A stretch of 64,000 nt of DNA from Hyphococcus luteus (lineage in GTDB: Bacteria > Pseudomonadota > Alphaproteobacteria > Caulobacterales > Parvularculaceae): NCBI RefSeq assembly GCF_002943565.1, contig NZ_PJCH01000005.1, forward strand, positions 620,001-684,000, in the 5' to 3' direction. Below, piece after piece: positions 33,592 through 61,991 of this stretch. How positions within the stretch are numbered: position 1 is the first letter of the stretch; every line of letters starts with the position of its first letter. A program made the position numbers and the translations under genes. A model generated the notes under the pieces. The model was given only the letters and a program-made list of their open reading frames with translations, searched no databases and had not been told where the DNA came from.

Positions 33592-33848
33592 GATATGCCC
33601 GCCGCAAGGGTAATCCTTCCATTTTTGGCGGAATGGATTCTTCGACATGCTGCCGAGCCTGAAACCAAGGCAGCAGGGCTTCAAGCCGGTTTGCTCTGAC
33701 AGCCGCAGTTTATGCCCCCCTGTAGCAGAATTCCGGGACGGTTTGGTGCTGACCCGACTTTGTTCTGACCGTCTTGCGATTTCTGGCGAAAACTCTCGAT
33801 AGCCCTTTTCTTGCTTCGTATGCGGATTTTGAACGTGCGACCTCAATG

Positions 33849-34778
33849 CTACGTCTGCTGACAATTTATCATGTAGGGTGTCATCCGTGCATCAGGAATA
33901 AAGGTGTTGATGACCGCATCAAAATCTTTGTCTTTAATTCCCATTAAATCGAGATCTTCTTCACGAACGCGTAAATTCATATCGATTGATAGTAGCGTCT
34001 TCTCACTCTCGCCGCTGACCAATGCGTCTGCAAGGCACACACATCCATTTTCTTTATCCATCTTCATCAGTGAAAACGAGCTTGCGATGAGACTATCCCG
34101 ACACGCTGCCGTGTAATTGTCCCGGCGGATACGCGTCATAACGTCTCCGGAAGATGCACTCTTCCAGGCGGGGACATCGCCAGATTTCTGTTCACTTTGC
34201 TCCTGAACTTTTTCTACTGCTCGAAGTTCTTCCGGCCAGGCCGCAAGCGCCGCTGAATCGCGCGGCTTGATGATGAATTTCGGGACGGGTGCATATTCCC
34301 CCGGCTTCGAATAGAACGACATGCGTAGCGGATATGTCCCGCTTGAACAGGGCGGACTCACGGCCGAAAGCACAAATGATAGACTACCTTTGCGGTTAAT
34401 CGCGCCGCTTTGCGGAACGCAAAGGACCGCAGGCGCGCGTTTATTCCCGTTTGCTGCTTGCGCATCCTGTGGATGGTAAACCGGATTGCCGACCCCGCCA
34501 TTCATGAGCGCATGGGTAAAGCCGATAGCAATGCCCTGATAGACGGACGTGTTCACATCCTCACATTTGCCTTTGCGGATCGTATGCCAGCCGGAAAGTT
34601 GCGCACGATCGCCCTGGCCGAGATTCCAGCGTGTTCTCAAGACGACGTAATGCAGATCGACATCCCCCCGATTACAGACATTCACCCAATGATATTCATT
34701 CGACTGGGCAGACGCGCTTTGGACGCCACCCGCAAAGCAGGCCAAAACGCTCAACACAAATAACAAACCACGGATCAT
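33849..34778 (-). CDS. exported protein with DUF1036-like N-terminus
   Basis: 309 residues. Signal peptide ending SASAQ (about residue 25). Residues 30-75 (WVNVCNRGDVDLHYVVLRTRW, LSGWHTIRKGKCEDV) resemble the DUF1036 pattern: Cys-Asn near the start, GW.t...G.C later. The rest is not recognised and has several Cys. Base composition is less GC-rich than the flanking chromosome. Last gene of a tightly packed minus-strand operon; its ATG overlaps the previous stop by 4 nt. Confidence 0.7.
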   Translation of the reverse strand: MIRGLLFVLSVLACFAGGVQSASAQSNEYHWVNVCNRGDVDLHYVVLRTRWNLGQGDRAQLSGWHTIRKGKCEDVNTSVYQGIAIGFTHALMNGGVGNPVYHPQDAQAANGNKRAPAVLCVPQSGAINRKGSLSFVLSAVSPPCSSGTYPLRMSFYSKPGEYAPVPKFIIKPRDSAALAAWPEELRAVEKVQEQSEQKSGDVPAWKSASSGDVMTRIRRDNYTAACRDSLIASSFSLMKMDKENGCVCLADALVSGESEKTLLSIDMNLRVREEDLDLMGIKDKDFDAVINTFIPDARMTPYMINCQQT

Positions 34779-35005
34779 GTCTCTTTCCCTCCATCAGGTT
34801 GAGCCGCACACCCGACGGATTGGTAAAGATCGAAGAGTGACTGATGGGCTTTTTCAGCCAAAGCGGACCAGCCCTCATTCTCCTGAATCGCCGGATGTTC
34901 CAGTAACTCGGCATCAACACTGCGCATCAGGAACGAAGCCATGTGCAACGCTTCATGCGTGAGTAGCGGATCGGGTGTCATCTTTGTCATCGGTCTTGCC
35001 GTCAT
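34775..35005 (-). CDS. hypothetical small protein (76 aa)
   Basis: Starts at ATG 35005, one base after the stop of the small lipoprotein gene and overlapping the next gene by ATGA, so translation is probably coupled. Contains HEALHMASFLMRSVDAELLEHPAI, alpha-helical. No export signal. Function unknown; its tight placement between exported proteins is the main evidence that it is real. Confidence 0.72.
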   Translation of the reverse strand: MTARPMTKMTPDPLLTHEALHMASFLMRSVDAELLEHPAIQENEGWSALAEKAHQSLFDLYQSVGCAAQPDGGKET

Positions 35006-35006
35006 T

Positions 35007-35189
35007 CTATTGGCCTGAATCTTGTCCGTTTGTCATTGTGCAGGCCATAGGCGCGCTTCCGTCAGAGCTTTTGCCGACAGGCAGTTCAAAACACCCGTTT
35101 GGCCAGTCCACGGTAAGGGGTGCAGCTTGTTCGGTTGAAGCACAGGCGCCAAGCAAGAGCATCAAACCGAAACACACTGAGCGCGTCAT
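35007..35189 (-). CDS. small lipoprotein (60 aa)
   Basis: MTRSVCFGLMLLLGACASTEQ: lipobox LGAC with Cys16. The short mature part has two Cys (NGCFEL, PMACTM). Start overlaps the stop of the upstream gene by ATGA. Part of the four-gene operon 36085 to 33849. Confidence 0.75.
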   Translation of the reverse strand: MTRSVCFGLMLLLGACASTEQAAPLTVDWPNGCFELPVGKSSDGSAPMACTMTNGQDSGQ

Positions 35190-36085
35190 TCAACACCCAT
35201 TGTTTGGTTGATGTAAGCGCGGCGGGACTCGCAGCGCCGGGCGCTCGTAAGAAAGAACGCATAGGTCGCATCTCTGATATCGGAGTCTACAATATTCAGC
35301 CCCGAATTCTGCAAATCTTTGAGGATGGCGATCACGTCGAGCCTAGAATTCGCGGCATATTGCTTCCCTGTGATTTGTGCATCCCAGAACAAGGCGTGCG
35401 CTGTGTGTTTTGCAATCAGCACATCGGCTGGGTCCGTTTCATGAGCTGTGAAGATGTCCGGCGTCGCCTTCAGGACATCTACGGCCTTGGTCATCACGGC
35501 GCGGCACCAGTATTGTTCATCCCGGCGCAGCACTCCGAAATATGCCTTATCGTCAATAATCGCTTCCATATGCCGTGTTAAAGCCGCATCCCATTGCGGT
35601 GCGTAGACAGACATGAGGAGACCGTTCATTCCCGGCAAGATCGTCTGAACCTCAGCCGCACAATCATCATAGTCATCCTCGCCAAATAAAAGGACGAGTT
35701 CCATCGCAGTGGGGTCCAGTTTGAGACCGGTCTTTCCTTGGTATCCGGCTCCAAACAAGCCATAGCCGTGCAGGACCGAGATGAACTGTGCCGCCAGAAA
35801 AACACGACGCCAATCTTGTTGATAGGAAGTGAGTTTGTCATCGTCCCCCCAGTAATCGGCATCGGGATCAATCGCATAGCAGAATTGAGCACGCCGCATC
35901 AGCTTGAACGGATCAGGATATTCGGTGGAGAGCTTCTGAGAGAACGGTTGCGGGGTGGCTTCAGCTTTCGCGCTATTAAATCCGACACCGATCACAACAC
36001 CTATGATCAGAGAAATGGTGATGGCCCTAGAGAAGATGCGGTTGAAGCGTGCGGCATGCTCCCGAAATCCATTCTGATCACTCAT
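35186..36085 (-). CDS. hypothetical exported/anchored protein
   Basis: 299 residues. One hydrophobic segment at about residues 21-40 (AITISLIIGVVIGVGFNSAKAEA), either an anchor or a late signal peptide. The remaining part is rich in aromatic residues (YWGDDDKLTSYQQDW, HGYGLFGAGYQGKTG) and appears alpha-helical and periplasmic. First gene of the four-gene operon. Not recognised. Confidence 0.72.
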   Translation of the reverse strand: MSDQNGFREHAARFNRIFSRAITISLIIGVVIGVGFNSAKAEATPQPFSQKLSTEYPDPFKLMRRAQFCYAIDPDADYWGDDDKLTSYQQDWRRVFLAAQFISVLHGYGLFGAGYQGKTGLKLDPTAMELVLLFGEDDYDDCAAEVQTILPGMNGLLMSVYAPQWDAALTRHMEAIIDDKAYFGVLRRDEQYWCRAVMTKAVDVLKATPDIFTAHETDPADVLIAKHTAHALFWDAQITGKQYAANSRLDVIAILKDLQNSGLNIVDSDIRDATYAFFLTSARRCESRRAYINQTMGVE

Positions 36086-36235
36086 GATTTAACTCTTCAG
36101 CGATTGAAAAGGTGACAAACCCAAACACGGCATTTCGCGAAACCTGGCAACAAACCAATATGGTTATTTTGCCGCCGCTATAGTTCTGGTCTACCTTGCA
36201 GCCAGATATTCCGAATCTTTCTGAGGCAAGCGAAA

Positions 36236-36373
36236 ATGGCTCATCACAAGCGGAAAAAGCCGAAATCGGCACACGCGGGCTGTCTCTTGTGCAAACCTCA
36301 CAAGCGGCAAGACGCTCCCAAATCGGATCGCCGGCGCTTTGCGGATCGCCGCCGCGCGATGCGGGGCTTATGA
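36236..36373 (+). CDS. very small CLLCKPHK protein (45 aa)
   Basis: ATG 36236 to TGA 36373. MAHHKRKKPKSAHAGCLLCK then PHKRQDAPKSDRRRFADRRA: Arg/Lys-rich with a CxxC pair that could bind zinc. Similar basic proteins with AGCLLCKPHK occur in proteobacterial genomes, from memory; no function is known. Shares the strand with the next gene, 24 nt away, which has AAAGGAAAG before it. Confidence 0.6.
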   Translation: MAHHKRKKPKSAHAGCLLCKPHKRQDAPKSDRRRFADRRRAMRGL

Positions 36374-36397
36374 CACAGAAAGGAAAGTCTTGAGATC

Positions 36398-37690
36398 ATG
36401 GACAGGAGCGATATCACCACCTATCGGCCTGCATGGGCTTCATACTGGAAGGCATGGCTCGCGGTCGCCGCGCTAGCCGCAAGCGCATATGCTTTCTCGC
36501 AGGTCAGGGGGACTTATCTAGACACACCAACACAACGTCAGGAAATCGCGCCGTTAGTAGGCCTTGCACCAGCCTTGCTGATCATCGCGGGGGTTTTGTT
36601 CCACCGCTACACGCGCGCTTACCAGATCGAAAGTGGGCGGCGGCTTCGCACAACCATCGGCTTTATCGCCCGCGACCGCCGTGAGTTTCTGATATCTGAC
36701 AAAATCCAGACTGACTTGAAACAGACCGTGCTCAGCCGATTGCTTGGTTACGGCACCTTGCGTTTCTGGACGGGAGACGACCAAAGCGGCCAGAGCTGGG
36801 TGAATGTCGCCGCCCCGAACCGGCTGGAAGCCGAGATCAAGGCGCTGGCGCTAAGTACAGACGACGCTGCGCGTAAGCCTTCGAGAACCGCCGCGAACGC
36901 ACGAACAGAAAAGCCCAACTTTCATCTGAATCCGACCACCCTCACCATCCCGCCGCTCCCTAAGCCGCCGGCAGGAACGATATTCGCCAACCACGCGGTT
37001 ATCCTGCCCCGGTTTCCATCCTCCTTCGTGCGCCACATCGGCTCACTTGATACAGCCGTTGAGCCTCAACAGTTTGTAACCAAAGGCGAGCCGTTGCTCA
37101 CGCTGACGCTGATGACGGAAGACGAGAAACTCTTTGGCGGCGGCAAGGTTGAGGATGTCGTCATTCCGGCTCCTGTGTCCGGCCTCGTGCTAAGGCGCAG
37201 TCACTTCGCCAGCAGGCTCTCCCATGAAACGGCACTGAACCCTGCGGACGAGATGCGCGCCACCTTGTTGCCGGTCGAAGGCGAGTCAGTGGAGAACGGC
37301 GCCTTCATCTTTGGTGCATTGTGCAATGCGATGTGGAAGCACCGCGATTTCCTATTCCGACGCCAGAAAAAACTGAAGGAAATTTCAAAACACAGCCCTG
37401 GCTCTGCGCAATGGGTCGCCACATGGGCTGACGATAACACCATTCGCGAAGCCCTTGATAAAATGCTGACCCAGGCTTGCGATGAAATTCCCGCGCGCCC
37501 CGCGTTTGACGACTATCTTTGCGAGGCGTGGATCAAGCGACCGTATCTGCGCGACTTTCTCGCGCCGTTCGTTGACGAATCAGCCCTGAGAAAGGTGAAT
37601 ACGCATTACAAGCTGGAACAGCCGGAAATGGTCAACGAGGCAATCCGCACCCATCGCGAAACGCTTCACAAGCTCGCCGGAAGTGATTGA
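36398..37690 (+). CDS. bPH2-like membrane protein, paralog A (biotinyl-lipoyl-like C-terminus)
   Basis: 430 residues. RPAWASYWKAW, two TM helices (about 18-35 and 52-70) and then HRYTRAYQIESGRRLR...GFIARDRREF...SDKIQTDLKQTVLSRLLGYGTLRFWTGDD, which has the look of a bacterial PH (DUF304-type) domain. After a linker, residues about 205-300 (GTIFANHAVILPRF, LDTAVEPQQFVTKGEPLLTLTL, VVIPAPVSGLVLRR) look like a barrel-sandwich (biotinyl-lipoyl/HlyD) fold. The first 150 residues are paralogous to those of the gene at 41215-42513, whose C-terminus is different. Confidence 0.72.
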   Translation: MDRSDITTYRPAWASYWKAWLAVAALAASAYAFSQVRGTYLDTPTQRQEIAPLVGLAPALLIIAGVLFHRYTRAYQIESGRRLRTTIGFIARDRREFLISDKIQTDLKQTVLSRLLGYGTLRFWTGDDQSGQSWVNVAAPNRLEAEIKALALSTDDAARKPSRTAANARTEKPNFHLNPTTLTIPPLPKPPAGTIFANHAVILPRFPSSFVRHIGSLDTAVEPQQFVTKGEPLLTLTLMTEDEKLFGGGKVEDVVIPAPVSGLVLRRSHFASRLSHETALNPADEMRATLLPVEGESVENGAFIFGALCNAMWKHRDFLFRRQKKLKEISKHSPGSAQWVATWADDNTIREALDKMLTQACDEIPARPAFDDYLCEAWIKRPYLRDFLAPFVDESALRKVNTHYKLEQPEMVNEAIRTHRETLHKLAGSD

Positions 37691-37737
37691 TTTCGACCCT
37701 GCCAGACAAAGACCGTTCGTGACGAAACCACTCGTGC

Positions 37738-39084
37738 TCAGATGTTCAGGATAATGAAGGTGCCATACTCCGGCGCGGCCGGTGTCCAGTAACTGCTCCG
37801 GGTAGCGAACCAGACAACTTCGTACGGCGGCGGCTCGGCGGGATAGCGAATGGCCATGTCGGAGAGCACGATCACACGTTCGGTGTCCGGATCTTCCGAC
37901 AGCCTGTCGAAGGCTGCCGTCAGATCACTCCCGCCATAGCCTCGGACTTCGAAGCTTTCGAGACTGTCGATATCAACGGTTTCGTCCGCCGTGACATCAT
38001 CCGATGCCTGAATGATCCGCACTTGCGACACACCGGCGGCCTTGGCCGATGCCTTGATCAGCGACAGGAGCCGCGGCAGCACCCCGGTCATCGAGCCCGA
38101 TGTATCGAGGATCAGGTTGAGCCCCCATCCCTCGTGCCGCCGGCCCGGCAGGACAATATCCCGCCGCGTGCCCTGCCGACGCGAGGCCCGGCGATAGGTC
38201 CTGACCTTCGGGGCGATCCTGTCGATCCCGCTCTGCAGGGCAAGTTCGACCGGTATCCGGTCATTCGTCGCGATAATATCAAGCGTCGCGGTCAAGTGCG
38301 GATAGGTGAAATCCGGATGGCGGTACCGCAGGGCGGAGGTGACAACGGCATGCGTGCCGAGTGCGGCATCTGCTGCCAGCCGCAATGCCTCCGCACGGTC
38401 TGCGATGGCATCACCGGCCGATCCTCCGCCCGAGGCCAGCGGGGCCGCGATCACCGGCACAGTGATGGACAGGCGCCTGAGATCTTCTTCGGTCAGGATA
38501 TCACCCGGGCAGTCCGCTGGCGCGTCATCGCCGGAGGAAGCCTCCGAGGGGGCAAGATGTGTTCCACGCAACGCCTCTTCGAAAGGCGTTGGCATTCGCT
38601 GTTCGGGTCTGCCAGCCTCGTCATCCCAGACTGACCGGCGCCCAGGCAAAGGGACGTTGCCATCCTTCAGCCACCGCACCAGCTCCTCTGCCGAGTGATT
38701 GTCGGCATCTCCCAGCCACAGGCCATTCTTTGGCGGCATGATGCCCAGCTCATCCGTCAGTATCCTGTTGATGATCCAGTCGTGTGCGACATTGACATGC
38801 CAGGCATCATCCGGCCCCGCGCGCGCATGGCTTTGCAGGACGAGATGCCACAGTTCATGGGACATGACATAGATCGCCTCTGGCCCGGACAGCGACAGGA
38901 ACCAGTCCGGATTGACGAACAGGCGGCCATCGGCGGTGATGCCGGCCGTCGGGATGCGGGGTTCGACATGGATCGCCACCATGTCGGCGAGGCCGCCCAG
39001 ATAGGGCTGGAGATTGCGGACATTGTTCAATGCGCGCTGCGCATAATCCAGCGCCAGCCTCAGAGTGTCCGCCGCCGCGCTCAT
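37738..39084 (-). CDS. VWA-domain putative metallopeptidase (DUF2201-like)
   Basis: 448 residues. N-terminal half has HELWH near residue 76 (MSHELWHLV), the HExxH zinc motif in the DUF2201 context with following HVNVAHDWIINRIL. C-terminal VWA-like domain has MIDAS elements DTSGSM (near 331), GGSDLT and LSDMA. Such proteins are partners of MoxR-type AAA ATPases. Its start overlaps the MoxR stop by ATGA. Convergent with paralog A of the PH-like pair. Confidence 0.88.
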   Translation of the reverse strand: MSAAADTLRLALDYAQRALNNVRNLQPYLGGLADMVAIHVEPRIPTAGITADGRLFVNPDWFLSLSGPEAIYVMSHELWHLVLQSHARAGPDDAWHVNVAHDWIINRILTDELGIMPPKNGLWLGDADNHSAEELVRWLKDGNVPLPGRRSVWDDEAGRPEQRMPTPFEEALRGTHLAPSEASSGDDAPADCPGDILTEEDLRRLSITVPVIAAPLASGGGSAGDAIADRAEALRLAADAALGTHAVVTSALRYRHPDFTYPHLTATLDIIATNDRIPVELALQSGIDRIAPKVRTYRRASRRQGTRRDIVLPGRRHEGWGLNLILDTSGSMTGVLPRLLSLIKASAKAAGVSQVRIIQASDDVTADETVDIDSLESFEVRGYGGSDLTAAFDRLSEDPDTERVIVLSDMAIRYPAEPPPYEVVWFATRSSYWTPAAPEYGTFIILNI

Positions 39085-40097
39085 CTCAGGCCCGTCGCCT
39101 CCTTGAGGGATGACAGCAGGCTGTCGCTCGCCCCCAGATCCCCCCAGATACGGACCAGGCCGACCAGCAGAGAGAACCTGACCTCGCCCGGCAGGGACGA
39201 CAGGAAGCGCTCGATCTCATCCGGAGAGAACTCGCTGAGGCCGCCTTCTGCTGCCATCTTCCGGATGATGCGGATGATGAACCATTTCTTCGCCGGCTCG
39301 ACAGGCAGGAGCGACGGATCGCGGATATAGGCGGATGCGGGCTTCAGGTCTTCCATGCCGCTTTCCGCCAGCCCGCAGAACAGGCTCGCATCCCCGGCGC
39401 TGACCTTGCCATAGGTGAGTGCGCGGCGGGTCTGCTCCAGCGGAAGGCCCGCGCGTTCGGCAAGGTCCAGGCTGGCCGACAGCGACGCCCAGGCCCGCGG
39501 TGTGGAAAACGGCACAGGCTCGGCCGGGATGGGCCGCATCAGCGCATCGGGCACCGCAGCGATGAAGGCAATGATCTCTGAACGGATATTATTGGCGCGC
39601 GCCCAGCTGATCCATTCCTCATTGTCAGCGCGCACGTGCAGGATCAGGACGCGATTGACGAGCGCGGACGAGATGGTACGCACCAGCGCGCGGTCTTCCG
39701 CCCGGTTGCCCGCCGCAACGACCCATGTGCCTTTCGGCAGGTCGAACTCGCCGATCCGACGCTCCAGCAGCAGGGCGTAGAATGCCTTCTGCACATCCGG
39801 CCCGGCGGCGGGCAATTCGTCGAGGAAGAGGCAGAACGGTTCCCCACTTTCGGGCAGCAGGATACGCGGCGGGCAGAAGACAGAGCGCTCGCCATCGATC
39901 TTCGGTACCCCGCTGACATCCTCCGGCGCGATCTGCGTGCCCAGGAGCGAGCGGCATTCGAGCCCCGCCTCTGCTGCGGCGCTGCGCACAATGTCTGATT
40001 TGCCGAGGCCGGGCGACGACAGCAGCAACACGCTTTCGTCCGCCGCAAGCGCCTTGATGATTTCCCTGGCCTGAGAGAGCGTCACGGTCTCATTCAT
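39081..40097 (-). CDS. MoxR-type AAA+ ATPase
   Basis: 338 residues from ATG 40097, with AGGGGA before it. P-loop LLSSPGLGKS near residue 33, Walker B LFLDELPAAG near 95, sensor AAGNRAED near 137, arginine-finger region NRVLILHV. MoxR ATPases act as chaperones that load or remodel VWA-domain partners. Overlaps the previous gene by 8 nt and the next by 4, so the three proteins are translationally coupled. Atypical Ser at the first P-loop position. Confidence 0.9.
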   Translation of the reverse strand: MNETVTLSQAREIIKALAADESVLLLSSPGLGKSDIVRSAAAEAGLECRSLLGTQIAPEDVSGVPKIDGERSVFCPPRILLPESGEPFCLFLDELPAAGPDVQKAFYALLLERRIGEFDLPKGTWVVAAGNRAEDRALVRTISSALVNRVLILHVRADNEEWISWARANNIRSEIIAFIAAVPDALMRPIPAEPVPFSTPRAWASLSASLDLAERAGLPLEQTRRALTYGKVSAGDASLFCGLAESGMEDLKPASAYIRDPSLLPVEPAKKWFIIRIIRKMAAEGGLSEFSPDEIERFLSSLPGEVRFSLLVGLVRIWGDLGASDSLLSSLKEATGLR

Positions 40098-41157
40098 GAT
40101 TTTCCCCTGTGGACTTCCAATCGTCAAATACTTCCGACGGGCGGTAGGTTCTGTCCCATACGTCGAAGGCGATCAGCCCCTTCATGGCAGCCCTGCTGGC
40201 TTCCGGCACCGCGCTCACACGGCCATTCTGGAACCGGGACAGGAGCAATGCCGTAACGGGATGAAAGTCGTCATTCAGGACGGCCTGCTTCTTGCCGCCG
40301 CTGGTTGCGCCGAGGGCGAGGTCCATGAGGCGGTAGAGGTCATCGAAGGCTGGCAGCCTGTGCGGCCGCGGCGCGATGATGCCAGGCACCCATGCATCGC
40401 CCTCGCCTGCCCGCTTTGCCGTGAGTAGCAGGCAGAGGAACCAGAAGGCCGCCGGCTCAAAGGGCACGATGGCGCATGCAAGGACCTTGTCGTCCTCGTC
40501 CAGCAGGCGGCCGAGCGCATCGGCAAGGCGGGCCTGCGCGCGGACCATCGCATAGGCGGCAGCGATTTCCGGCTCCCTCAGGATCCAGCCATACTTCCCG
40601 ACGGCGCTGATATCGCGCGCGGCGATGAGCTTCTGGTAGGCGCGGACGGCGGGGCCCACGCGACCCTCCAGTTCGATATGGACATAGTTGCAGGCAATGA
40701 TCCGCGTGACCGCCGAGAGGCCGTCTCCGGCCCCTGAGAGGACCTGCGCAACGGCGCGGACTGTTTCATCCGGACCCGCATGCGCGAGACGGTTCACCAC
40801 ATCACCCGCAGCCTCGGCACCAGCGCCTTCCGGAGAGAAGCGCGTAAACTCCTGCAGCACATCGGCCGCTTCTTCCCGCCGGACCGCGAGGTGCATGACC
40901 AGATCATCGACCAGCGCCTTGCCGCCGGCAGACGGTCCCGACCGCCTGCGGGGCTTCCGGTCTTCGAACGCGTCATAGTCTGCCTCTTCGCCGGCATCAT
41001 CATCCTGATCGTCCGCATAGCGGGCACCGTTATCATAGTCACCATAGTAGAGGTCGAAATCGTCGCAATAGCCATTGTTCGCCAGCCATGTCATGTCATC
41101 GACATCCAGCCGGCGTGTTCGCCAGAGATAGCTGATGAGCTCGTCGATCACGCGCAT
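40090..41157 (-). CDS. hypothetical alpha-helical protein of the MoxR operon
   Basis: 355 residues, no export signal. A very acidic, Tyr-rich segment at residues 30-65 (DDFDLYYGDYDNGARYADDQ, then DDDAGEEADYDAFED) precedes a helical region (VMHLAVRREEAADVLQEFTRF, VVNRLAHAGPDETVRAV). Not recognised. Its overlap with the MoxR gene marks it as a third member, possibly a substrate or adaptor. Confidence 0.8.
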   Translation of the reverse strand: MRVIDELISYLWRTRRLDVDDMTWLANNGYCDDFDLYYGDYDNGARYADDQDDDAGEEADYDAFEDRKPRRRSGPSAGGKALVDDLVMHLAVRREEAADVLQEFTRFSPEGAGAEAAGDVVNRLAHAGPDETVRAVAQVLSGAGDGLSAVTRIIACNYVHIELEGRVGPAVRAYQKLIAARDISAVGKYGWILREPEIAAAYAMVRAQARLADALGRLLDEDDKVLACAIVPFEPAAFWFLCLLLTAKRAGEGDAWVPGIIAPRPHRLPAFDDLYRLMDLALGATSGGKKQAVLNDDFHPVTALLLSRFQNGRVSAVPEASRAAMKGLIAFDVWDRTYRPSEVFDDWKSTGENHE

Positions 41158-41214
41158 GGCAGAGACTTCCCGGAGGGTGGACAGGCGGACATTCTCATTC
41201 CGGGTTGAGGCGGC

Positions 41215-42513
41215 TCACCAGGCAACTTCTTCATCGACGGTTTCCGGCGCGCGCATTTCGCCCCCAGTCAGGCGGCGAACGAACAATGCGCCGCGCAGAT
41301 CGCCGACCTTGAAGTCACCCACCGGCATATGCCCGTCATAGGCCCAGGCCAGTCCACCTCCCAGACCGGTCGCCGTCCATAGGTGGACATTGGTCTCGAA
41401 CAGCTCCGGATACAGGCGCTTGGCCACCGCGAAACTCGCCTTGCCTTTCCAGCCCCACAGATAGGCATCGTCTTCCGACATGGCGGCTTCCGCTTCGCTC
41501 ATGTCGTCATCCCGGCGGTGATGGAATGGTACAAACTGGTCCAGCTCTGCCGCTGTCGGCAGGCGCCAGTCCGTGTACCCCGCTGCATCGATCACGCACT
41601 TGCCTTTCCTGTAGCCATGCTCAAACGCCGAGGCGACCCGCTTTCCGCTGCCCATATAGGCCATGGTGCTGCCGACGGCGGTGCCCACTCCGAACAGATC
41701 GGTCGCATCGCTCCACTTCATGCGGATAGGTTCGCCGGCAAATCCGCTTCCGGTCCACACCATGCCCCATGGCGCACGCAACCACATGAGTCCACTGTCA
41801 GCGTGGGACACTGTGCCATCGTCATTGTCGATGTAGTCACCCAGTGGCGTCCTGATCCGCTGGGCAACCATGTCCTTGAGGTCTTTGTATTCGACCGATT
41901 TTCCGAAATGCGTGACCTTGGCAGACTTCGCCTCTTTCAGTGTCGGAGGCTCGGGCATGCGGGATACTGGACGCGCCGTTTCTCCGGCCTGGTGGGCTGC
42001 AGGCGCATACGACGTGCCCTGTGGCCCGGATTTAAGCAGGTCGAGATAGGCGATGACACGATCGGGGTCGGACGTATTCCGCCATTCGAGCCGGCTGCGG
42101 TCATCGCCGGTCCAGAAGGCAATCGTTCCATAGTTGAGGAGACGCCCGGCAATTGTCTGACCCATGTCAGTCTGGACTTTGTCCGTCAGCGGAAATTCCC
42201 GTTTCACACGGGAAATGAAGCCGGCGAGCAGGCGAAGCTTGCGTCCGTTCTCGATCTCATAGGCGTGGGTATAGCGGTGATAGATCACACCCGCGAGGAT
42301 CGGCACCAGCGCAATGGCAAGCCCGAGGCCCGAAAGCTCCACAGGAATGCCAAGGCGCTGCGCCAGTCCGTCGAACAGTTCACGCTGCACGAACCAGAGG
42401 CCTGTCACCACCACAGCCGCAAGGCCGCTCCGCCAATAGCTGGTCCATGCGGGACGCATCCGAAGAACTGTCTGTCCCTTGCGAGACAGCTGTTTGAACT
42501 GACCTGGCTGCAC
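41215..42513 (-). CDS. bPH2-like membrane protein, paralog B (DUF1566/Lcl C-terminus)
   Basis: 432 residues. The N-terminal 150 residues (RPAWTSYWRSG, HRYTHAYEIENGRKLR, SRVKREFPLTDKVQTDMGQT, RLLNYGTIAFWTGDD) match the PH-like membrane module of the 36398 gene. The C-terminal part (IDNDDGTVSHADSGLMW, WSDATD, AGYTDWRLPTAAELDQF, VHLWTATG) is a DUF1566/Lcl domain, often found in secreted or surface-sensing proteins. Heads the MoxR operon with a 57-nt gap. Confidence 0.8.
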   Translation of the reverse strand: MQPGQFKQLSRKGQTVLRMRPAWTSYWRSGLAAVVVTGLWFVQRELFDGLAQRLGIPVELSGLGLAIALVPILAGVIYHRYTHAYEIENGRKLRLLAGFISRVKREFPLTDKVQTDMGQTIAGRLLNYGTIAFWTGDDRSRLEWRNTSDPDRVIAYLDLLKSGPQGTSYAPAAHQAGETARPVSRMPEPPTLKEAKSAKVTHFGKSVEYKDLKDMVAQRIRTPLGDYIDNDDGTVSHADSGLMWLRAPWGMVWTGSGFAGEPIRMKWSDATDLFGVGTAVGSTMAYMGSGKRVASAFEHGYRKGKCVIDAAGYTDWRLPTAAELDQFVPFHHRRDDDMSEAEAAMSEDDAYLWGWKGKASFAVAKRLYPELFETNVHLWTATGLGGGLAWAYDGHMPVGDFKVGDLRGALFVRRLTGGEMRAPETVDEEVAW

Positions 42514-42620
42514 GTTGTGATGTCCCCTTCACACGAGAATATTGATATGCCGTGCGGAACTGCTTCCCCACGCTTTTCTGTATCGGCGGTTAGGCTAGAT
42601 GACGCAACTTACCAGACGGG

Positions 42621-43964
42621 TTATGTCGGCCGCACGAAAGCGATGGACACTTTCAGGCCCGGATTCGTGTTAGCGAGTGTCAGCCGCGCCCCATGGCGGA
42701 TCGCAACCGCCTGTACATGCCTCAATCCGAATCCATGACTGCCGGGGCCAGCCTTGCGGCCCGTTCCGGCAAGTTCCGCAATACTGGTCGTCACAACACC
42801 CGGCCCCCCATCCTGAACCGTCACTGTAAAATGCCGGTCGGTCGCGGCAAGTATCAGCGAAACTGTTGACCCTCCCGGGGCGAATTTCGCGGCATTGGAC
42901 AGGAGATTCGTGATGGCACTGGCGAGCAGCGGCGCCGATGCGAGGATTTCCATCCGGTCATCCGGCGGCAGCTGCAGTTCGAAACGGATGTTCCGGTCTT
43001 CGAACGTATCGGCATAGAGTACGGCCACCGATGCCGCTGTGTCCGTGAGTGAAACGGGCTGCATGGCATAGCCCGGTGTCGACTCGATCTTGGCCAGCTC
43101 CAGGATGTGCGAGACGAGGTCCAGCAATTGCTCGGCCTCCTGCGCCGCGCTGGTATTGCCAGCAGCAAGGAACCGGTCCCGCATGATCGAGACGGCATGG
43201 TTCAGCTCATGCGCTGCGACCTGGCTGTAGGAATCCAGCCCCCTCATAAGGCGCGCCACTTCGGTCAGCGCTTCAGTCACGTTTGCGCCGAGGGTCGACA
43301 GCTCGTCTTCCTCGGGGGTGAGGAAAGCGGGCTCGACACGTGCAGCGATCTCGCCGGTACGGACCCGGTCGAAAACGCGGTTGAACGCCCGGACGCGGCG
43401 CAGGTAGCGGCGGTTCAGGAGGACGAAAAGAAGCGTGCTGACCACGCCAAGACACAGGACGGCACCAACGAGGATCGGCACGTAGTTCTGAATCAGCGCC
43501 TGCCGCGCCGTCAGCCGCCGGCCGACGAACAGGAAAAACCCGTCATCGACAGCCTCGACCCGCGCGAGCAGGATCCCCTTGCCCATGCCAAGCCCGGCGG
43601 CATCCATTTCGATCCATCCTTCGGCCAGAGGCGTGCCAGGAGGCCAGGTCGGCGCATTTCCGGCAACGGTACTTCGGTCGGACCGGACAAGCAGGTAGAC
43701 GGACTGTGCATCCTCTCCGCCATCCTCGAACAAGCGTTGGCCCAGCGATGCGGTCAGGCTGGCCACGGGAGGCAGGACGTCCCGGTCCTGCGTCCGCTCT
43801 GTCAGCAGGGCGATGTCGCGGCGAATTTCCTCGCGGAGAGTCCGCTCGACCGCGCCATCAATCGCCGCCGTCGCTGCGAGACCGGCAATCACGGCCAGGC
43901 CGAGCGTCACGATCAGATTGATCAGAAGGGAAATCTGGAAGGGGGACCGAAAACTCCGGATCAA
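42621..43964 (-). CDS. sensor histidine kinase
   Basis: 447 residues. Two TM helices (about 13-34 and 160-183) flank a ~125-residue periplasmic domain; HAMP-like region, then a variant phosphoacceptor box VAAHELNHAVSIMRDR with His252, followed by N box NLLSNAAKFAPGG, D box QDGGPGV and G box GSHGFGLRHVQAVA. The H box is unusual (HELNH rather than HELRTP). Partner of the OmpR-type regulator at 44929, with a lipoprotein gene between. Confidence 0.88.
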   Translation of the reverse strand: MIRSFRSPFQISLLINLIVTLGLAVIAGLAATAAIDGAVERTLREEIRRDIALLTERTQDRDVLPPVASLTASLGQRLFEDGGEDAQSVYLLVRSDRSTVAGNAPTWPPGTPLAEGWIEMDAAGLGMGKGILLARVEAVDDGFFLFVGRRLTARQALIQNYVPILVGAVLCLGVVSTLLFVLLNRRYLRRVRAFNRVFDRVRTGEIAARVEPAFLTPEEDELSTLGANVTEALTEVARLMRGLDSYSQVAAHELNHAVSIMRDRFLAAGNTSAAQEAEQLLDLVSHILELAKIESTPGYAMQPVSLTDTAASVAVLYADTFEDRNIRFELQLPPDDRMEILASAPLLASAITNLLSNAAKFAPGGSTVSLILAATDRHFTVTVQDGGPGVVTTSIAELAGTGRKAGPGSHGFGLRHVQAVAIRHGARLTLANTNPGLKVSIAFVRPT

Positions 43965-44059
43965 ATCTCAGCGCCTCATCTTTCCGGCATTCATGCAATC
44001 GTCCAGCCACTCTGTACCGGCCGCACCACCACCTGTCACATAACCGTTCGGGTTGGCTC

Positions 44060-44845
44060 CTATTCGCTCGCGAGGGCCGTGCCCACGCTCCGCGCATCGC
44101 CGCTGACAAAGACGACGACGCTCACCCGTGAATCGCTGCGGTTGGTTATGACAAGGTCGATCTCCGTATGTGCGCCCGCCGGCACGAAGCAGGCAAGACG
44201 TCCACCATCCGAGATCGTCTCGCATCCTTCAGCGGCGGTCTCGCCGGGGGCCACTACCGGCAAAACCGAGAGCACGAGATCCGGCACAAAGCCGGCGAAT
44301 TCCCGTGACGGTTCGACAAATATTGTTGTCCCGGCATCCTTGACGACGGGCAGGCGCAATTCCTCAGTCATGCCGGGCGACAGAAAGATGTCCATTTCCA
44401 TCCCGACCGTGACATCCACCTTGCGCAAGGACCTGACCACCCCTTTACCGAATAGCCCGGAAAACACACCTTCCTCGGCTGGATTTTCCATCGCGAACAT
44501 GCGTTCGATCTCGGCGAGGATCTCTGCCTCGTCTGCTGCCATCTCCCGGGTTTCGTCCATCATTATCCGGGTCGATGCGAGGAATGCCTCGCGCACCCCG
44601 GGGTGAATCCGACTGGATATCTCCATTGCGTCCAGCACCGTCATGCGGTCACGCACAGCCTCGGCCATTCCGATCGCATCGTTTTCGCTGCGGCTGGTGC
44701 GGTAAGCTTCCTCGGCGCGGAAAAGTGATGACGCGACAGATGAGTCAACGGGCGCATCCGCCATGCCGGGTGACGGCGTGACAACGCATCCTGCCAGAAA
44801 AAGGCAGAGCATTGCTATCGTGCTGAAAACCCTGAACCCCGGCAT
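44060..44845 (-). CDS. hypothetical lipoprotein of the two-component locus
   Basis: 261 residues from ATG 44845 (frame open earlier). MPGFRVFSTIAMLCLFLAGC: lipobox LAGC, Cys20. The mature protein is helical in its first half (ALEEAY-like, MDETREMAADEAEILAEIERMFAM) and beta-rich later. Not recognised. Transcribed away from the regulator gene (83 nt divergent gap) and toward the kinase (95 nt), so it may be a periplasmic accessory of that sensor. Confidence 0.75.
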   Translation of the reverse strand: MPGFRVFSTIAMLCLFLAGCVVTPSPGMADAPVDSSVASSLFRAEEAYRTSRSENDAIGMAEAVRDRMTVLDAMEISSRIHPGVREAFLASTRIMMDETREMAADEAEILAEIERMFAMENPAEEGVFSGLFGKGVVRSLRKVDVTVGMEMDIFLSPGMTEELRLPVVKDAGTTIFVEPSREFAGFVPDLVLSVLPVVAPGETAAEGCETISDGGRLACFVPAGAHTEIDLVITNRSDSRVSVVVFVSGDARSVGTALASE

Positions 44846-44928
44846 GTCTCTGCAAACCTCGTTTGTTAGGTGGAGAAACTCAATCGCAGTGCTAGGTAAA
44901 AGAGGCAATCCCATAGAGGCGGGAAAAC

Positions 44929-45636
44929 ATGGATATACGCAATTACGTGCTCGTTGTGGAAGATGATGCCGATATCGCCAGTCTTGTGGTGCACGAGGCC
45001 GGCCAGCTCGGATATCACGTCACCACAGCTGACACGGTCAATGGCGCCAAGCGCCGGACATCCGAACAGATGCCCGACATCGTGATCCTGGACCGCATGC
45101 TGGCTGACGGGAGCGAAGGCCTCGATTATCTCGCCTGGCTGAATGCGCTGGAAGGCCCGCGCCCTGGTATCCTTGTCACCAGCCGGCTGACCAGCGTCAA
45201 CGATCATGTCGCCGGGCTTGAAGCCGGTGCCGATGATTATATCGACAAACCCTTCCATCCGGAGGAATTGCGGGCGCGCCTGCGCGCGGTTGCGCGCCGC
45301 GCATCATTGAGCCGTGCGCCGAACAGCGTGCTGTTTTTCGACACGCTTGAACTCCGGCAGCTGAGCGCGACGGCGCTGGTCAGGGACACACCACTGGACC
45401 TTCGCCCGCAAAGCTTTGCGCTGCTGAACGCCATCGCGACGCGGCAAGGCGAATGGGTCAGCCGGAAAGCGCTGTGGCGCGAGGTCTGGACCGACTATCC
45501 GAACCTGCCGCCTCAGGACACCGTCATCAATACGGCCATCAGCCGGCTGCGGCGCGCGCTGTCCGCGATTGATGGCGCCCCCGGCCTCCTCAGCGAGGAT
45601 CTCGGCTATCGCCTGGTACCCGGCTCACAGGCCTAG
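44929..45636 (+). CDS. OmpR/PhoB family response regulator
   Basis: 235 residues. Receiver: acidic pocket EDD (11-13), phospho-acceptor Asp55 in ILDRMLADG, Thr-Ser (VTSRLTS) and Lys in DYIDKPFHPEELRARL. C-terminal winged helix (RPQSFALLNAIATRQGEWVSRKALWREVW, DTVINTAISRLRRAL, GYRLVP). Expected to be phosphorylated by the divergently oriented kinase and to control this divergent promoter and possibly cargo genes. Confidence 0.93.
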   Translation: MDIRNYVLVVEDDADIASLVVHEAGQLGYHVTTADTVNGAKRRTSEQMPDIVILDRMLADGSEGLDYLAWLNALEGPRPGILVTSRLTSVNDHVAGLEAGADDYIDKPFHPEELRARLRAVARRASLSRAPNSVLFFDTLELRQLSATALVRDTPLDLRPQSFALLNAIATRQGEWVSRKALWREVWTDYPNLPPQDTVINTAISRLRRALSAIDGAPGLLSEDLGYRLVPGSQA

Positions 45637-45692
45637 CGACAGCCTGCCCCGAACGATAGAAAGCAACAAATCAGTTACCGTGGAGACAGCAT

Positions 45693-46199
45693 ATGAGCGA
45701 TGGCGTCATCGGAAGATTCAAGCAATCACGCCCCCTGCAGGTTGGCCTTGCCCTGGCTGTTGCATACATCGCGGTAACATGGGGATTGTATCAGAGCTGG
45801 CTGGGTTCGGTTGAAACCTTCCTTGACGGCGCGACGAGCGGGCTCTCCCGCAACGATCCAGACCGCACACGGCGCATTATCGACGCAACCGGAAATGCGC
45901 CGGAATGGCCGTTTATCCTGAAGCTGCTGGCCTACCCCATTCCGGGGCCCGCAACCGTCGAGAATGGCGGCGCGATGCCCTTCTGGGCGGTCGCACTGCA
46001 GGGGATCTGGCTCGGCGTTGTTGGCTGGTCGGGCTTCAGCCGGACGAATGGCATGCTGCTCGTCCTTTCCGCATTTCCCTTTGCAGTCCTGGTGCTGATG
46101 AGCGGAAATGTATTTGCCAGCCTGTTCCTGGGCGCACTCGGCCCGGTCATCGTAAGCGTTGTCTGGTGGATGCTCAGCCCCTTCGCCAAGCCTGCATAG
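45693..46199 (+). CDS. hypothetical membrane protein
   Basis: 168 residues, with AGACAGC before ATG 45693. Four hydrophobic segments (VGLALAVAYIAVTWGLYQSW, PFWAVALQGIWLGVVGWSGF, MLLVLSAFPFAVLVLMSG, LFLGALGPVIVSVVWWML). Follows the response-regulator gene by 56 nt and could be co-transcribed. No family recognised. Confidence 0.75.
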   Translation: MSDGVIGRFKQSRPLQVGLALAVAYIAVTWGLYQSWLGSVETFLDGATSGLSRNDPDRTRRIIDATGNAPEWPFILKLLAYPIPGPATVENGGAMPFWAVALQGIWLGVVGWSGFSRTNGMLLVLSAFPFAVLVLMSGNVFASLFLGALGPVIVSVVWWMLSPFAKPA

Positions 46200-46228
46200 G
46201 GCAGCGCATCGGTCCGCGCGCGGGCATT

Positions 46229-47014
46229 TCATTCCCCGTCATAAGCAGCGCCCCGGTAGGGAATGTGGCAATCGGACTCAACCGTCACGAAGTATCGCGG
46301 GCGATCCGGATCGAACACCAGCGCGGTTAGTCCGCCACCATGCACGGCGCCGGTATCGATCCCCGTTGCGTGGGGAAATTCCGCCGGTCCATCCGGAAAG
46401 GGTTGGTGCCCGAAGACGACATGTCCGAAACGCCCGTCATAGACTTCCGCCCAGAATGGGTCTCCTTCGGCCTGCTTGCCAAGCGCGAGAAATTCCCCGG
46501 TGTCCGCATCGAGGTACCGCGTGCGTAGGATCTTCTGAAGCCGCTTTGCTTCATGGCCGGCGAGCATGGACGCGGCTTCGAGAGAAGCCGGAAACTCCTG
46601 CATCGTTCCGGGGATGCCACCATGGACGATCAGCACGCCATAGGCCGCGCAGCGGTGGAATGGCACGGACCAGTCCAGAAACGCTTCACCGGCATCGTTC
46701 AATTGCGCCCTCAGCTCTGCAAGTTCGGGCGCGCGTTCAGCCTGCGCCTTTGCCACGGCGGGACGCACATCAAGATTGCGAAGATAGCGGCGCATGCGGT
46801 CTTCATGGTTTCCTTCGACGAGCACCACTTCACAGCCCGCGCTGCGGCGAAGGCCCTCGACATATAAGACCACGCCTGCGGGATCCGGCCCCTTGTCGAT
46901 CAGATCGCCAACGAAGACGAGCTTATCAGAGGGCTGAATATCTAGCTTGCAGACAAGCGCGCGCAACGGCGCCAGCATCCCGTGTACATCACCGATAATG
47001 CATAAGCGGCTCAT
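46229..47014 (-). CDS. PPP-type serine/threonine phosphatase (metallophosphoesterase)
   Basis: 261 residues. Metal-binding motifs in order: GDVHG (8-12), GDLIDKGPD (near 36-44), EGNHEDR (near 67-73), and later VIVHGGIP and VFGHQPF, which is the full PPP/ApaH-like signature. Cytosolic. In cargo together with a two-component system and unrecognised proteins; could dephosphorylate a protein or a dinucleotide substrate. Confidence 0.9.
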   Translation of the reverse strand: MSRLCIIGDVHGMLAPLRALVCKLDIQPSDKLVFVGDLIDKGPDPAGVVLYVEGLRRSAGCEVVLVEGNHEDRMRRYLRNLDVRPAVAKAQAERAPELAELRAQLNDAGEAFLDWSVPFHRCAAYGVLIVHGGIPGTMQEFPASLEAASMLAGHEAKRLQKILRTRYLDADTGEFLALGKQAEGDPFWAEVYDGRFGHVVFGHQPFPDGPAEFPHATGIDTGAVHGGGLTALVFDPDRPRYFVTVESDCHIPYRGAAYDGE

Positions 47015-47059
47015 TTCCCGACCTCACCTACCTTCCAAACCGAGCCGCGATCCTACGGG

Positions 47060-48073
47060 TCACCTGCCGGCACCCTTCACCTTTTCGAGCAGATCGCCAA
47101 GCCTGTCCTTCGATTTGACGTATGCGCCCTTGCCAGGCGGACCCTTGTAGGAAAGCCAATGCGGCTGCATCAGGCTGAACAGTTCTTCGACAATCGCCTG
47201 ACTCCCTTCCGGCCATTCGGATACCGGAATATCCTCAAGCATATAAGCCGCCTTCGCCGCCATGAACTTGTCGGCAGAACGCAGTCCCCAGGCCATGAAA
47301 TCACGCCGGTCCTGCGGACTTCTGAGAATATGCACCCGTTCAGATATGACCACATCAAGGATCGCCTTCTGCGTCTTCGTGTACTCCTCTGTTCGCGAAA
47401 GCGGCCCGGAATGCTGTTCGGGAGGCAAACAGCTTCGCGCCCATGCGATAAAGCGCTGGCATTGCTTATCGCTCATGTTCAGGAGCCAGTAGCGAGCGTT
47501 GGATAGCGCGAGCTCAGGATAGTGCTTCGAGGCGAAACTCATATACAGGTCGAATTCGTCGGCGCCGTAGAACCAGCCGGCAATGGATATGAGATAAACG
47601 AAATCCGCACGCGTTGTATCGTCCAATGCGTCCTCGATTGCGTTCCGGTGTCTTTCTTCCTGGAACAGGTCCGACAGCGCCTGAATGGAGTGACGTAACC
47701 ACGGGAGGTGATCCGGACCTGTGCCCTCTTGCTCATAGTCGAAGAAGCCTTCGATAAGGTCGAACACATAAAAAAGGTCATCAAGATCGAGCTCCGTCAC
47801 CGATAGGTGACCAACCAGAACAGAAAACGCTCTCAGCGCCTCGTCATAATGGTCATCCTGCTTCCAGAAGAGGGTCTGAGCGGCATCAGCATAGAAGAGC
47901 AGGAGATTGTGGACGATATCCCTGCCCGGATATTCTGCAGCGAGCCTTTCACAGAAATTTTCTTTATACAGATCGTCCAGATAGATGCGAAGATTGTATT
48001 CGAATGCGGCGCCCGGCGTGCCCGAACTGAAAAACCGAGTAGCGAATGGATGGGATGATTGCCCGGAAGACAT
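47060..48073 (-). CDS. unrecognised 337-residue family, paralog 1
   Basis: No export signal or known domain. Helical and acidic/aromatic. Shares with the product of 53565-54587: YPG...I..NL..-.YA..., FFDYEQEGTGPDHL (FFDWEPEGDGPAHL), AGWFYG (ANWFYG), WARS, DRRDFMAWGLRSADKFMAAKAAYMLE (DRQDFAIWGLCSADKFLAAKAAYLLE), EGSQAIVE, and KDRLGDLLEK. The C-terminal 90 residues are the most alike. Lies between a PPP phosphatase and a small lipoprotein. Confidence 0.78.
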   Translation of the reverse strand: MSSGQSSHPFATRFFSSGTPGAAFEYNLRIYLDDLYKENFCERLAAEYPGRDIVHNLLLFYADAAQTLFWKQDDHYDEALRAFSVLVGHLSVTELDLDDLFYVFDLIEGFFDYEQEGTGPDHLPWLRHSIQALSDLFQEERHRNAIEDALDDTTRADFVYLISIAGWFYGADEFDLYMSFASKHYPELALSNARYWLLNMSDKQCQRFIAWARSCLPPEQHSGPLSRTEEYTKTQKAILDVVISERVHILRSPQDRRDFMAWGLRSADKFMAAKAAYMLEDIPVSEWPEGSQAIVEELFSLMQPHWLSYKGPPGKGAYVKSKDRLGDLLEKVKGAGR

Positions 48074-48106
48074 TCTGGCACGTATCCTTTTACTTGTACT
48101 GGCTCT

Positions 48107-48349
48107 CTAGCCTGGCGAACGCTCCGGAGCGTTGCAATCGCTCTCGGACTGTTCCGGTTCCGGATCGCGCTGAGGCTTCCTGCGGCAGACGAATGGGCAG
48201 ATCAGGATGGGCTGGCCGTCATACTCCCTGTCACAGCATGTGCGAACCTTCGACTCCCGTGCTGCGGGCTGCTCTGATGGCGGCGCTGTCGCACAGGCAG
48301 AAAGGCCAAGCAGCGCCGGCAAGAGTAAGCGCCGGTAACCGGTCCGCAT
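48107..48349 (-). CDS. small lipoprotein (80 aa)
   Basis: Start taken at ATG 48349 (MRTGYRRLLLPALLGLSACA), lipobox LSAC with Cys18. Mature part has several Cys (VRTCCDRE, ILICPFVC) and ends in a Pro/Glu-rich tail. Its start lies inside the 3' end of the next upstream gene's frame only if the longer start is used. Function unknown. Confidence 0.65.
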   Translation of the reverse strand: MRTGYRRLLLPALLGLSACATAPPSEQPAARESKVRTCCDREYDGQPILICPFVCRRKPQRDPEPEQSESDCNAPERSPG

Positions 48350-48371
48350 CAGCCGTCGTAGCGATGCCCTG

Positions 48372-49109
48372 TCACTTTGCATCTGCGAACGGCCTGCACT
48401 GGCCATCGTTGAACTTCTGGTACATGGCGCCCCGGCTCGCCTCCAGCGTGCTCGTCAGTTCCTCGCTGAAATCAAGACTGAGATCAAACTGCCCGACATA
48501 CTCTTGCTCGTATTCGTCCCAATCCAGCCAGTCATCTTCATAACGGACCAGCTTGACCGTGATCATGGGCGCCGGGTCGTTAGCAAACCGGCGCGCCGGG
48601 AACTTGCCCGCGAATTTAGACACTTCGATGGAGCATTCGGCATCCATGTATTCATCCTTCATGCGCATCACATTGAAACTGTCAGAAACGTCGCCGACCT
48701 TTCTGTTGCTGACATAGTATTCGCACGCATCCACCAGCGGCATCTTGGTGAGGGAATGGCTAATCCGGAGTTCCATAGTTTCGGTGACATCTCCGGTCTT
48801 GAAATCGTGTATGCGCTCAATCCACGCCGACTTGTAGACGACCTTGTCTGTAAACGCCCGGTCGGCGCCGGTGATCGGCGAATCCGGAAAAGCGAGTTTG
48901 AGGCGCGCATGAACCAGGTTCGTCTCCGGCGAATACAGAAGCTCGCCGTTCAGGCTGCGCCCCTCCACAGTGTTGCTGAACCGGCAGTATTCGGTCGCCT
49001 GTGCCGCGGAATCGGCGGAAGCTGTGCCAGCCCCTCCAGCGATTGCCGATGAGATGGCTGCAAGACAGGCCGATACGAGCCTTGTACGTTTGAACGCAGA
49101 TTTACGCAT
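48372..49109 (-). CDS. hypothetical exported protein
   Basis: 245 residues. Signal peptide ending TASADS. Mature part beta-rich (LLYSPETNLVHARLKL, ETMELRISHSLTKMP) with several charged loops and Tyr/Asp-rich WLDWDEYEQEYVGQFDLS. Ends 22 nt upstream of the small lipoprotein start on the same strand. Not recognised. Confidence 0.72.
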   Translation of the reverse strand: MRKSAFKRTRLVSACLAAISSAIAGGAGTASADSAAQATEYCRFSNTVEGRSLNGELLYSPETNLVHARLKLAFPDSPITGADRAFTDKVVYKSAWIERIHDFKTGDVTETMELRISHSLTKMPLVDACEYYVSNRKVGDVSDSFNVMRMKDEYMDAECSIEVSKFAGKFPARRFANDPAPMITVKLVRYEDDWLDWDEYEQEYVGQFDLSLDFSEELTSTLEASRGAMYQKFNDGQCRPFADAK

Positions 49110-49231
49110 ATTCCATGGGTCCCCGCATTGTGGTCATCACAAGGATCCTAGCCATGGTTCACGGACCGCCCAAGTAACCAATCCTGTTAGGCTGCCAAGC
49201 GTTTGGCACCTGCAGTGATCGGTGAAGGCCC

Positions 49232-52409: not shown

Positions 52410-52432
52410 ATCATAAAGGGAATACAGACGTC

Positions 52433-61972: not shown

Positions 61973-61991
61973 GTCGTGTAAAAGCGCACCT

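Follow-up and report, generated by a model that had tools for sequence, protein, structure and literature searches.

What does a MoxR-type AAA+ ATPase (ATPase associated with diverse cellular activities) with a metallopeptidase partner do when the pair is encoded between two membrane proteins that share one anchor and differ in the rest of their length? Such a locus lies within a 64,000-nt stretch of the Hyphococcus luteus genome (assembly GCF_002943565.1, contig NZ_PJCH01000005.1, positions 620,001 to 684,000), hereafter the window; the genome (G000) comprises 4.9 Mb in 16 contigs. A first-pass annotation of the window had proposed a five-gene composition, and all five open reading frames (ORFs) are present: PH1 and PH2, which share a bacterial pleckstrin homology-like (bPH) anchor; VWA, a predicted metallopeptidase with a von Willebrand factor A (vWA) domain; MoxR; and ACID, an acidic protein (Table 1). 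We find that the Lcl_C-like half of PH2 and the whole of ACID diverge between related loci as one unit while the anchor and the MoxR–VWA motor remain constant, and sequence comparison identifies the module as cargo of a mobile island. The reading we favor, with a confidence that falls somewhat short of even, is that the module putatively functions as a protease switch, powered by MoxR–vWA and carried between genomes, whose sensors are exchangeable.

Comparison with genome G708, from the same order, delimits the variable unit. Changepoint analysis separates a segment at 0.928 identity that covers MoxR and most of VWA (37994-40098) from one at 0.649 (40099-42079), followed by a return to 0.900 (42080-48314). 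Support for the block borders is confined to 40094-40126 (33 nt, holding the MoxR ATG at 40097) and 42076-42086 (11 nt), the latter at PH2 residues ~143-146, toward the end of the bPH_2 match. Because this border falls inside PH2, its C-terminus has a common history with ACID. Their variation as one block, beside a constant motor, supports the early suggestion of diversified recognition parts. PH1 has a milder break near residue 148 (36831-36913, log-likelihood gain 23.8), again at the end of the anchor.

Synonymous divergence (dS) between the window and L005, the locus of genome G781, is raised in the same two genes, reaching 1.31 in ACID and 0.90 in PH2. Values are lower in VWA (0.23), MoxR (0.31), the neighboring sensor histidine kinase (HK, 0.38), PH1 (0.40), and the response regulator (RR, 0.47), and the gene at 44060 lies within 0.23-0.47. 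Such raised dS argues against a simple relaxation of constraint and suggests that a divergent allele was imported, or has been kept for a long time, rather than mere fast protein change. The order of similarity is moreover reversed within PH2. Over residues 1-145 the window is 97% identical to G708 and 89% to a third genome, G777 (G777-G708, 88%), and over residues 146-432 it is 84% identical to G777 and 65% to G708 (G777-G708, 62%). Counts of sites at which two of the three sequences agree (window=G708, window=G777, G708=G777) accordingly shift from 41/17/6 in the anchor to 50/190/48 in the rest of PH2 (P = 1e-13). This reversal suggests allele exchange, in which the G708 line would have received another allele.

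Several observations weigh against this interpretation. The comparison involves three sequences only, and a locally faster G708 line would yield equal site patterns; HK site counts for the same three genomes (101/73/84) show no clear order. The ratio of nonsynonymous to synonymous divergence (dN/dS, window-L005) is 0.20 for whole PH2 and 0.25 for ACID, with no sign of positive selection in either, and ACID is known in just two allele classes. Divergence from G708 is as strong in two other parts of the island (48315-49233 at 54.0% and 51794-52386 at 59.5% identity, against a backbone of ~90%), so variation in blocks characterizes the island at large and is not peculiar to the module. These two further blocks fit an explanation in which MoxR and VWA form a stand-alone two-gene chaperone or protease, PH1, PH2, and ACID are unrelated co-travelers, and the variable block results from island-wide recombination or from a faster-evolving line. 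We consider this unlikely, in part because a block border inside PH2 ties its C-terminus to ACID, and in part because of the arrangement of the genes. Transcribed from the minus strand in the order PH2, ACID, MoxR, VWA, they form a tight cluster: 57 nt separate the end of PH2 from ACID, the MoxR and VWA frames have 4 nt in common, and those of ACID and MoxR have 8 nt in common when MoxR is read from its likely start, the alternative ATG at 40097 (338 aa). PH1 lies on the plus strand, convergent with VWA across a 47-nt gap.

Table 1. Features of the module and its surroundings (window coordinates)
Feature	Position	Strand	Description
PH1	36398-37690	+	430 aa; bPH_2 membrane anchor, residues 1 to ~148, and C-terminal half without family
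VWA	37738-39084	-	448 aa; DUF2201_N metallopeptidase and DUF2201 vWA domain (predicted)
MoxR	39081-40127	-	MoxR-like AAA+ ATPase; 348 aa from TTG
ACID	40090-41157	-	355 aa; acidic, without known family; within variable block
PH2	41215-42513	-	432 aa; bPH_2 anchor, residues 1 to ~145, and C-terminal Lcl_C/DUF1566-like domain (below cut-off)
Variable block	40099..42079		PH2 residues ~145-432 and ACID; changepoint analysis against G708
Core island	33783..53941		Common to window and G708 in five pieces, 88-92% identity
Sensor histidine kinase (HK)	42621-43964	-	Upstream of PH2; Pfam
Response regulator (RR)	44929-45636	+	Pfam; probable partner of HK
Type IV secretion system coupling protein	56309-58267		Conjugative gene, right side of island
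DUF3363 relaxase	60059-61999		Conjugative gene, right side of island

PH1 and PH2 are 41% identical over 187 N-terminal residues (BLAST, E 2e-37), with no significant BLAST similarity between them outside this part, and bPH_2 exceeds its Pfam cut-off of 22 bits in both (26.7 bits in PH1, 29.6 in PH2). The shared N-terminal PH-like module described in the first-pass annotation therefore holds, with its membrane portion amounting to the one membrane-like segment per protein that passed the hydropathy threshold. The FWTGDD motif of this module occurs as a DNA pattern twice in the window (mean of 0.00 in 100 shuffles), two matches that are expected since the pattern was derived from the motif itself. 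Distant anchor relatives include a bPH protein of 171 aa encoded at another site of the same genome and, among 398 genomes of the phylum, weaker matches to the whole-protein PH model in 8 others.

Beyond the anchor the proteins part ways, as had been proposed, although not in every particular. For the C-terminal half of PH1 a barrel-sandwich fold had been named; Pfam returns no family match there, and Alteromonas plasmids encode a 213-aa stand-alone relative that corresponds to PH1 residues 193-395 (25% identity, E 8e-8, 7 records). The DUF1566/Lcl domain named for PH2 scores 32.6 bits (E 1.1e-7), below the Lcl_C cut-off of 34.9, and recurs in all three PH2 homologues tested (32.0, 28.5, and 33.5 bits, also below the cut-off). 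Since E-values across the window and homologues run from 6e-8 to 2e-6 despite these scores, the PH2 C-terminus is likely a divergent Lcl_C relative. The domain has no match in PDB by sequence up to E 10, and low mean pLDDT (predicted local distance difference test) in the structure models of PH2 (29.2) and ACID (42.2) counts against the sensor reading, since neither fold is established. A third type of C-terminus, without a family, stands on the same anchor in genome G963 (L165:8264-10030) and extends the early claim of one anchor with different ends. Separately, two genomes of the same genus (G294 and G298; L031, L032) encode 118-128 aa ORFs without an anchor that are 37% identical to PH2 residues 331-427 and are thus stand-alone relatives of the Lcl_C end.

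The other half of the variable block, ACID, has a predicted isoelectric point of 4.81 and a single hydrophobic stretch (residues 225-243), and no family match was obtained in Pfam up to E 1, PADLOC at E<=1, or PHROGs at E<=0.01 (best NCBIfam match, E 0.17), which agrees with its initial description as an acidic protein without known family. It is 88% identical to its counterpart in L004, the locus of genome G328, and 55% to that in L005. A dN/dS of 0.25-0.28 indicates that ACID is under purifying selection.

The motor consists of two predicted enzymes. VWA exceeds the Pfam cut-offs of DUF2201_N (48.7 vs. 23.2 bits, 1e-12) and DUF2201 (41.6 vs. 26.4 bits, 1.7e-10) and carries HELWH (HExxH) at residue 76 and DTSGS (DxSGS, metal-ion-dependent adhesion site) at residue 327; VWA_CoxE stays below its cut-off (24.4 vs. 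26.4 bits). VWA is thus, in predicted activity, a DUF2201 metallopeptidase–vWA protein with an adjacent MoxR partner, as first annotated. The assignment of MoxR stands on full-length similarity to phrog_1297 'ATPase' (E 1.4e-62) and on its L005 homologue, which passes AAA_5 (22.6 bits) and AAA and reaches 23.4 bits for bpMoxR. The window protein itself scores just under the Pfam cut-offs (AAA_5 21.9/22, AAA 20.1/21.2, bpMoxR, PF20030, 21.5/27), and a strict P-loop GxxxxGK[ST] was not found in it, which counts against an ATP-driven motor; the loop reads SSPGLGKS by eye, and a Walker B motif (CLFLDE) is present. Relatives of these proteins also occur in other surroundings. In G146 (L049:8171-11923) a MoxR relative directly precedes two genes that by eye resemble TssF and TssG of type VI secretion. 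In G299 (L071, contig C225) the C-terminal part of a VWA relative lies at the contig edge beside an IS110-type transposase-like gene (by eye), together with a putative defense set that has PADLOC QueC and OGG matches.

A MoxR–VWA pair of this kind is encoded by phages as well. Group 2.2 jumbo phages have the same two-gene core, an N-terminal metallopeptidase fused to vWA beside MoxR, for which a role in virion assembly was proposed (PMC7824862). Relatives of the peptidase–vWA protein are encoded at 55 viral loci, VWA matches phrog_1314 over its full length (E 1.8e-38), as MoxR does phrog_1297, and both PH proteins have weak matches (about 5e-5) to phrog_3707 'membrane-flanked domain'. The pair might then be a captured phage assembly machine that serves a prophage or disturbs phage assembly. 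We regard this as highly improbable. In trees of 33 MoxR and 27 VWA sequences, which included 16 and 15 hand-picked representatives of the 55 viral loci and excluded short fragments, the window proteins group with bacterial pairs (98/96 and 97/92) plus one viral contig, L147; the other 15 (MoxR) and 14 (VWA) viral sequences stand apart. The trees have long branches and a midpoint root. Alignments of PH and ACID against viral contigs gave 32 and 68 pattern matches and no confirmed relative, and PH1 likewise had no confirmed match in phage records. The module thus differs from the jumbo-phage pair in lying on a chromosomal island, in falling on the bacterial side of the sampled trees, and in adding PH1, PH2, and ACID.

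We interpret the module as island cargo because near-identical copies of the segment occur in unlike genomic settings and because conjugative genes accompany it. G708 and G781, which come from two families within the order, align over 31,982 columns at 99.5% identity. The left flanks gave no match of at least 300 bases, and beyond the right end identity is 71-74% in the first matches. The two copies show about 160 differences, which speaks against a simple mix-up during assembly, although G781 is a metagenome-assembled genome (MAG) and calls for caution. In both genomes the core lies between two ~1.8-kb repeats (93.5% and 93.3% identical in cross-comparisons), each carrying an AbiEii-type gene (the Pfam match is to the left copy). 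Between the window and G328, identity is 96-98% across window positions 17409-63735, a stretch that takes in the conjugative genes of Table 1; outside it, 12 matches on the left are 79-89% identical, and the right end is less clear because the two larger matches there are 92% and 98% identical. Plasmids were rejected as the vehicle: neither ACID (E<=0.01) nor VWA (E<=1e-10) has a plasmid match, and PH1 has one in its C-terminal part.

Several neighbors of the module on the island merit description. In G708 the repeat contains, at L080:2809-4340, an AbiEii toxin gene and a likely antitoxin gene. G328 has ~1160 extra bases between the kinase gene and the 44060 gene (window ~44056), and just left of the G328-like stretch the window encodes a 182-aa SET-domain protein (16685-17233; PF00856, E 5.2e-10). 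The two additional variable blocks span most of the proteins encoded at 48372-49109 and 51618-52409; by eye, both have the look of secreted proteins. The genes at 47060-48073 and 53565-54587 encode paralogues of 337 and 340 aa that share 47% identity, and each closely follows a gene whose product begins with a signal-like sequence (48372-49109 and 54627-55631); neither the paralogues nor these two neighbors have a Pfam match, and they could be partner pairs. The two-component system was rejected as a part of the module. G293 and G298 both have an HK relative together with a regulator, and in G298 no PH2 follows (in G293 the contig ends there), so HK is probably a mere neighbor.

How regularly the five genes travel together bears both on the switch and on the alternative of unrelated passengers. 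The gene set is rare. A MoxR genome scan returned 16 loci, namely two in alphaproteobacterial MAGs (L004 and L005), which keep the complete set in window order, and 14 in actinobacteria (MoxR 43-50% identical), where a VWA relative adjoins MoxR in 5/14 cases and PH or ACID matches are found in 0/14 (4.7 to 16.7 kb examined each). MoxR is present in 7/289 genomes of the class at E<=1e-20 and in 6/150 of the order at E<=1e-25, with G000, G328, G708, and G781 95-100% identical to the query. ACID occurs in 2/28 genomes of the genus and, across 385 class genomes that did not include G328, G708, and G781, only in the window's own. The anchor module (alignment, E<=1e-8) is found in 6/398 genomes of the order, twice each in G000, G328, G708, and G781 and once each in G777 and G963.

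The first-pass annotation held that its proposal would fail if the PH-like genes stood mostly without MoxR/VWA neighbors. The outcome is divided, with the pair adjoining the anchor in 4/6 genomes and missing from the stretches read in 2/6, so the link of the anchor to MoxR–VWA is usual and not obligatory. In G777 PH2 is the last gene before the island ends and gives way to a transporter gene, and the 19.6-kb contig lacks ACID, MoxR, VWA, and PH1 (the rest of G777 was not individually searched for MoxR). In G963 the surroundings of the lone anchor protein include a SenC gene and genes that by eye resemble those for a kinase and a regulator, with no MoxR/VWA match within the 20 kb read (the rest of G963 likewise not individually searched for MoxR). 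Because these two lack an adjacent MoxR–VWA pair, the anchor is a socket also used outside this gene set. Both cases suit unrelated passengers, as do the MoxR–VWA pairs of Actinoplanes loci, G719, and G112 (for G112 a contig of 5 kb), beside which no PH or ACID match was found, and both facts count against the switch. Co-conservation is, furthermore, weak evidence of joint function because the four complete loci represent one island lineage, two of them being near-identical copies. Against mere passengers, an anchor this rare is present twice around the pair in each of the four complete loci.

With these points on either side, we return to the protease switch and compare it with published MoxR–vWA systems. 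Ternary systems, with MoxR and vWA genes and at least one linked further component such as VMAP, iSTAND, FtsH, or a beta-propeller, were proposed as conflict switches with a switch-like chaperone logic (Kaur et al. 2020, PMC7159879). The module shares this layout and differs in the metallopeptidase domain of its vWA protein, in having ACID as third component, and in its bPH membrane anchors. Searches of the five proteins with Pfam and NCBIfam gave no match to VMAP-C, inactive STAND, FtsH, or beta-propeller domains (the existence of a model for each domain is unconfirmed); as regards the beta-propeller system, the bpMoxR domain scores 21.5 vs. 27 bits, and VWA matches only DUF2201_N and vWA models, with no fused propeller. 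C-type-lectin sensors with MoxR/vWA that are diversified by retroelements, likewise proposed conflict systems (PMC10907252), come closer. They too place a lectin-like-family sensor beside MoxR and vWA and concentrate variation in the sensor; the module differs in varying block-wise, including a second gene, and in carrying the sensor on a bPH anchor. Among the proteins of human microbiomes that retroelements diversify, DUF1566 was the Pfam domain seen most often (PMC4159848), and the C-terminal domain of Legionella Lcl is C-type-lectin-like (PMC11162425). A diversity-generating retroelement (DGR) was rejected as the source of diversity here, since a search of the window's own genome for reverse transcriptase (PF00078) was negative at E<=0.01 (the control matched in 3/14 genomes). 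The best reading is that the module resembles the C-type-lectin/MoxR–vWA systems and is a member of none. The initial statement that no named system has this composition stands insofar as no publication on it was found in the open-licence literature (most subscription papers fall outside that scope); the MoxR and vWA-metallopeptidase pair itself is already known, from jumbo phages and the five actinobacterial loci. One result runs counter to a defense role: PADLOC gave a single match for the five proteins, at E 0.064.

A different tradition of MoxR–vWA function is maturation. NorQD is a MoxR–vWA metal-insertion machine for nitric oxide reductase (PMC13036017), and NorQD and CoxDE-type maturation pairs resemble the module in joining an AAA+ MoxR to a vWA partner. 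The pair encoded here could similarly insert a metal into, or assemble, a membrane or respiratory complex, with the PH proteins as docking platforms, ACID as a scaffold, and the protease-like domain trimming the client. The island copies in G708 and G781 adjoin what by eye resemble copper and other metal genes, which favors this possibility, and the window copy lies beside a two-component system. We nevertheless rate maturation as rather improbable: no obvious client, whether oxidase, reductase, or other metalloenzyme, was found among the neighbors scanned, the locus is missing from most of the relatives searched, and a housekeeping client would leave the joint block variation of the sensor half and ACID unexplained.

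The protease switch with exchangeable sensors, by comparison, would accommodate the block. Under this model, MoxR (hexameric by homology) and the vWA–metallopeptidase would form a constant motor, and PH1 and PH2 would sit in the inner membrane by their shared bPH anchor, with their unlike C-termini most likely cytosolic. The Lcl_C half of PH2 would act as a C-type-lectin-like ligand-binding domain, and ACID as a cognate adaptor or substrate of the PH2 C-terminus; that ACID belongs to the Lcl_C half is proposed because both vary together. Ligand binding by PH2 may cause ACID to be released or presented to the vWA protein, whereupon MoxR would remodel ACID and the metallopeptidase would cleave it, so that ACID is either activated or removed. 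The likely setting would be conflict, with a phage, plasmid, or competitor, or envelope damage.

A more specific form of this idea is a recognition system that swaps one cassette, the lectin-like receptor half plus its partner gene, on a constant anchor and motor, spreads with the island, and does so without a DGR. In hsdS-like exchange, specificity modules are swapped on constant motor enzymes. The module has in common with it a constant enzyme and an exchangeable recognition part, and differs in that the variation takes in half of a receptor together with an entire second gene; recognition, moreover, is putative here. Joined to this form is the notion that the bPH anchor is a socket into which different sensor heads can be fitted, three types having been seen. 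Taken together, cassette swapping and the many-headed socket are a minority prospect in our estimation.

MoxR–vWA conflict systems have hitherto been predicted largely from gene neighborhoods. At this locus natural variation acts like a ready-made domain mapping, separating constant parts from two parts that belong together, and it yields a concrete prediction, namely that the C-terminal domain of PH2 and ACID are cognate. If this is true, block exchange would represent a second diversification route for the lectin-like sensors of such systems, besides retroelement hypermutation.

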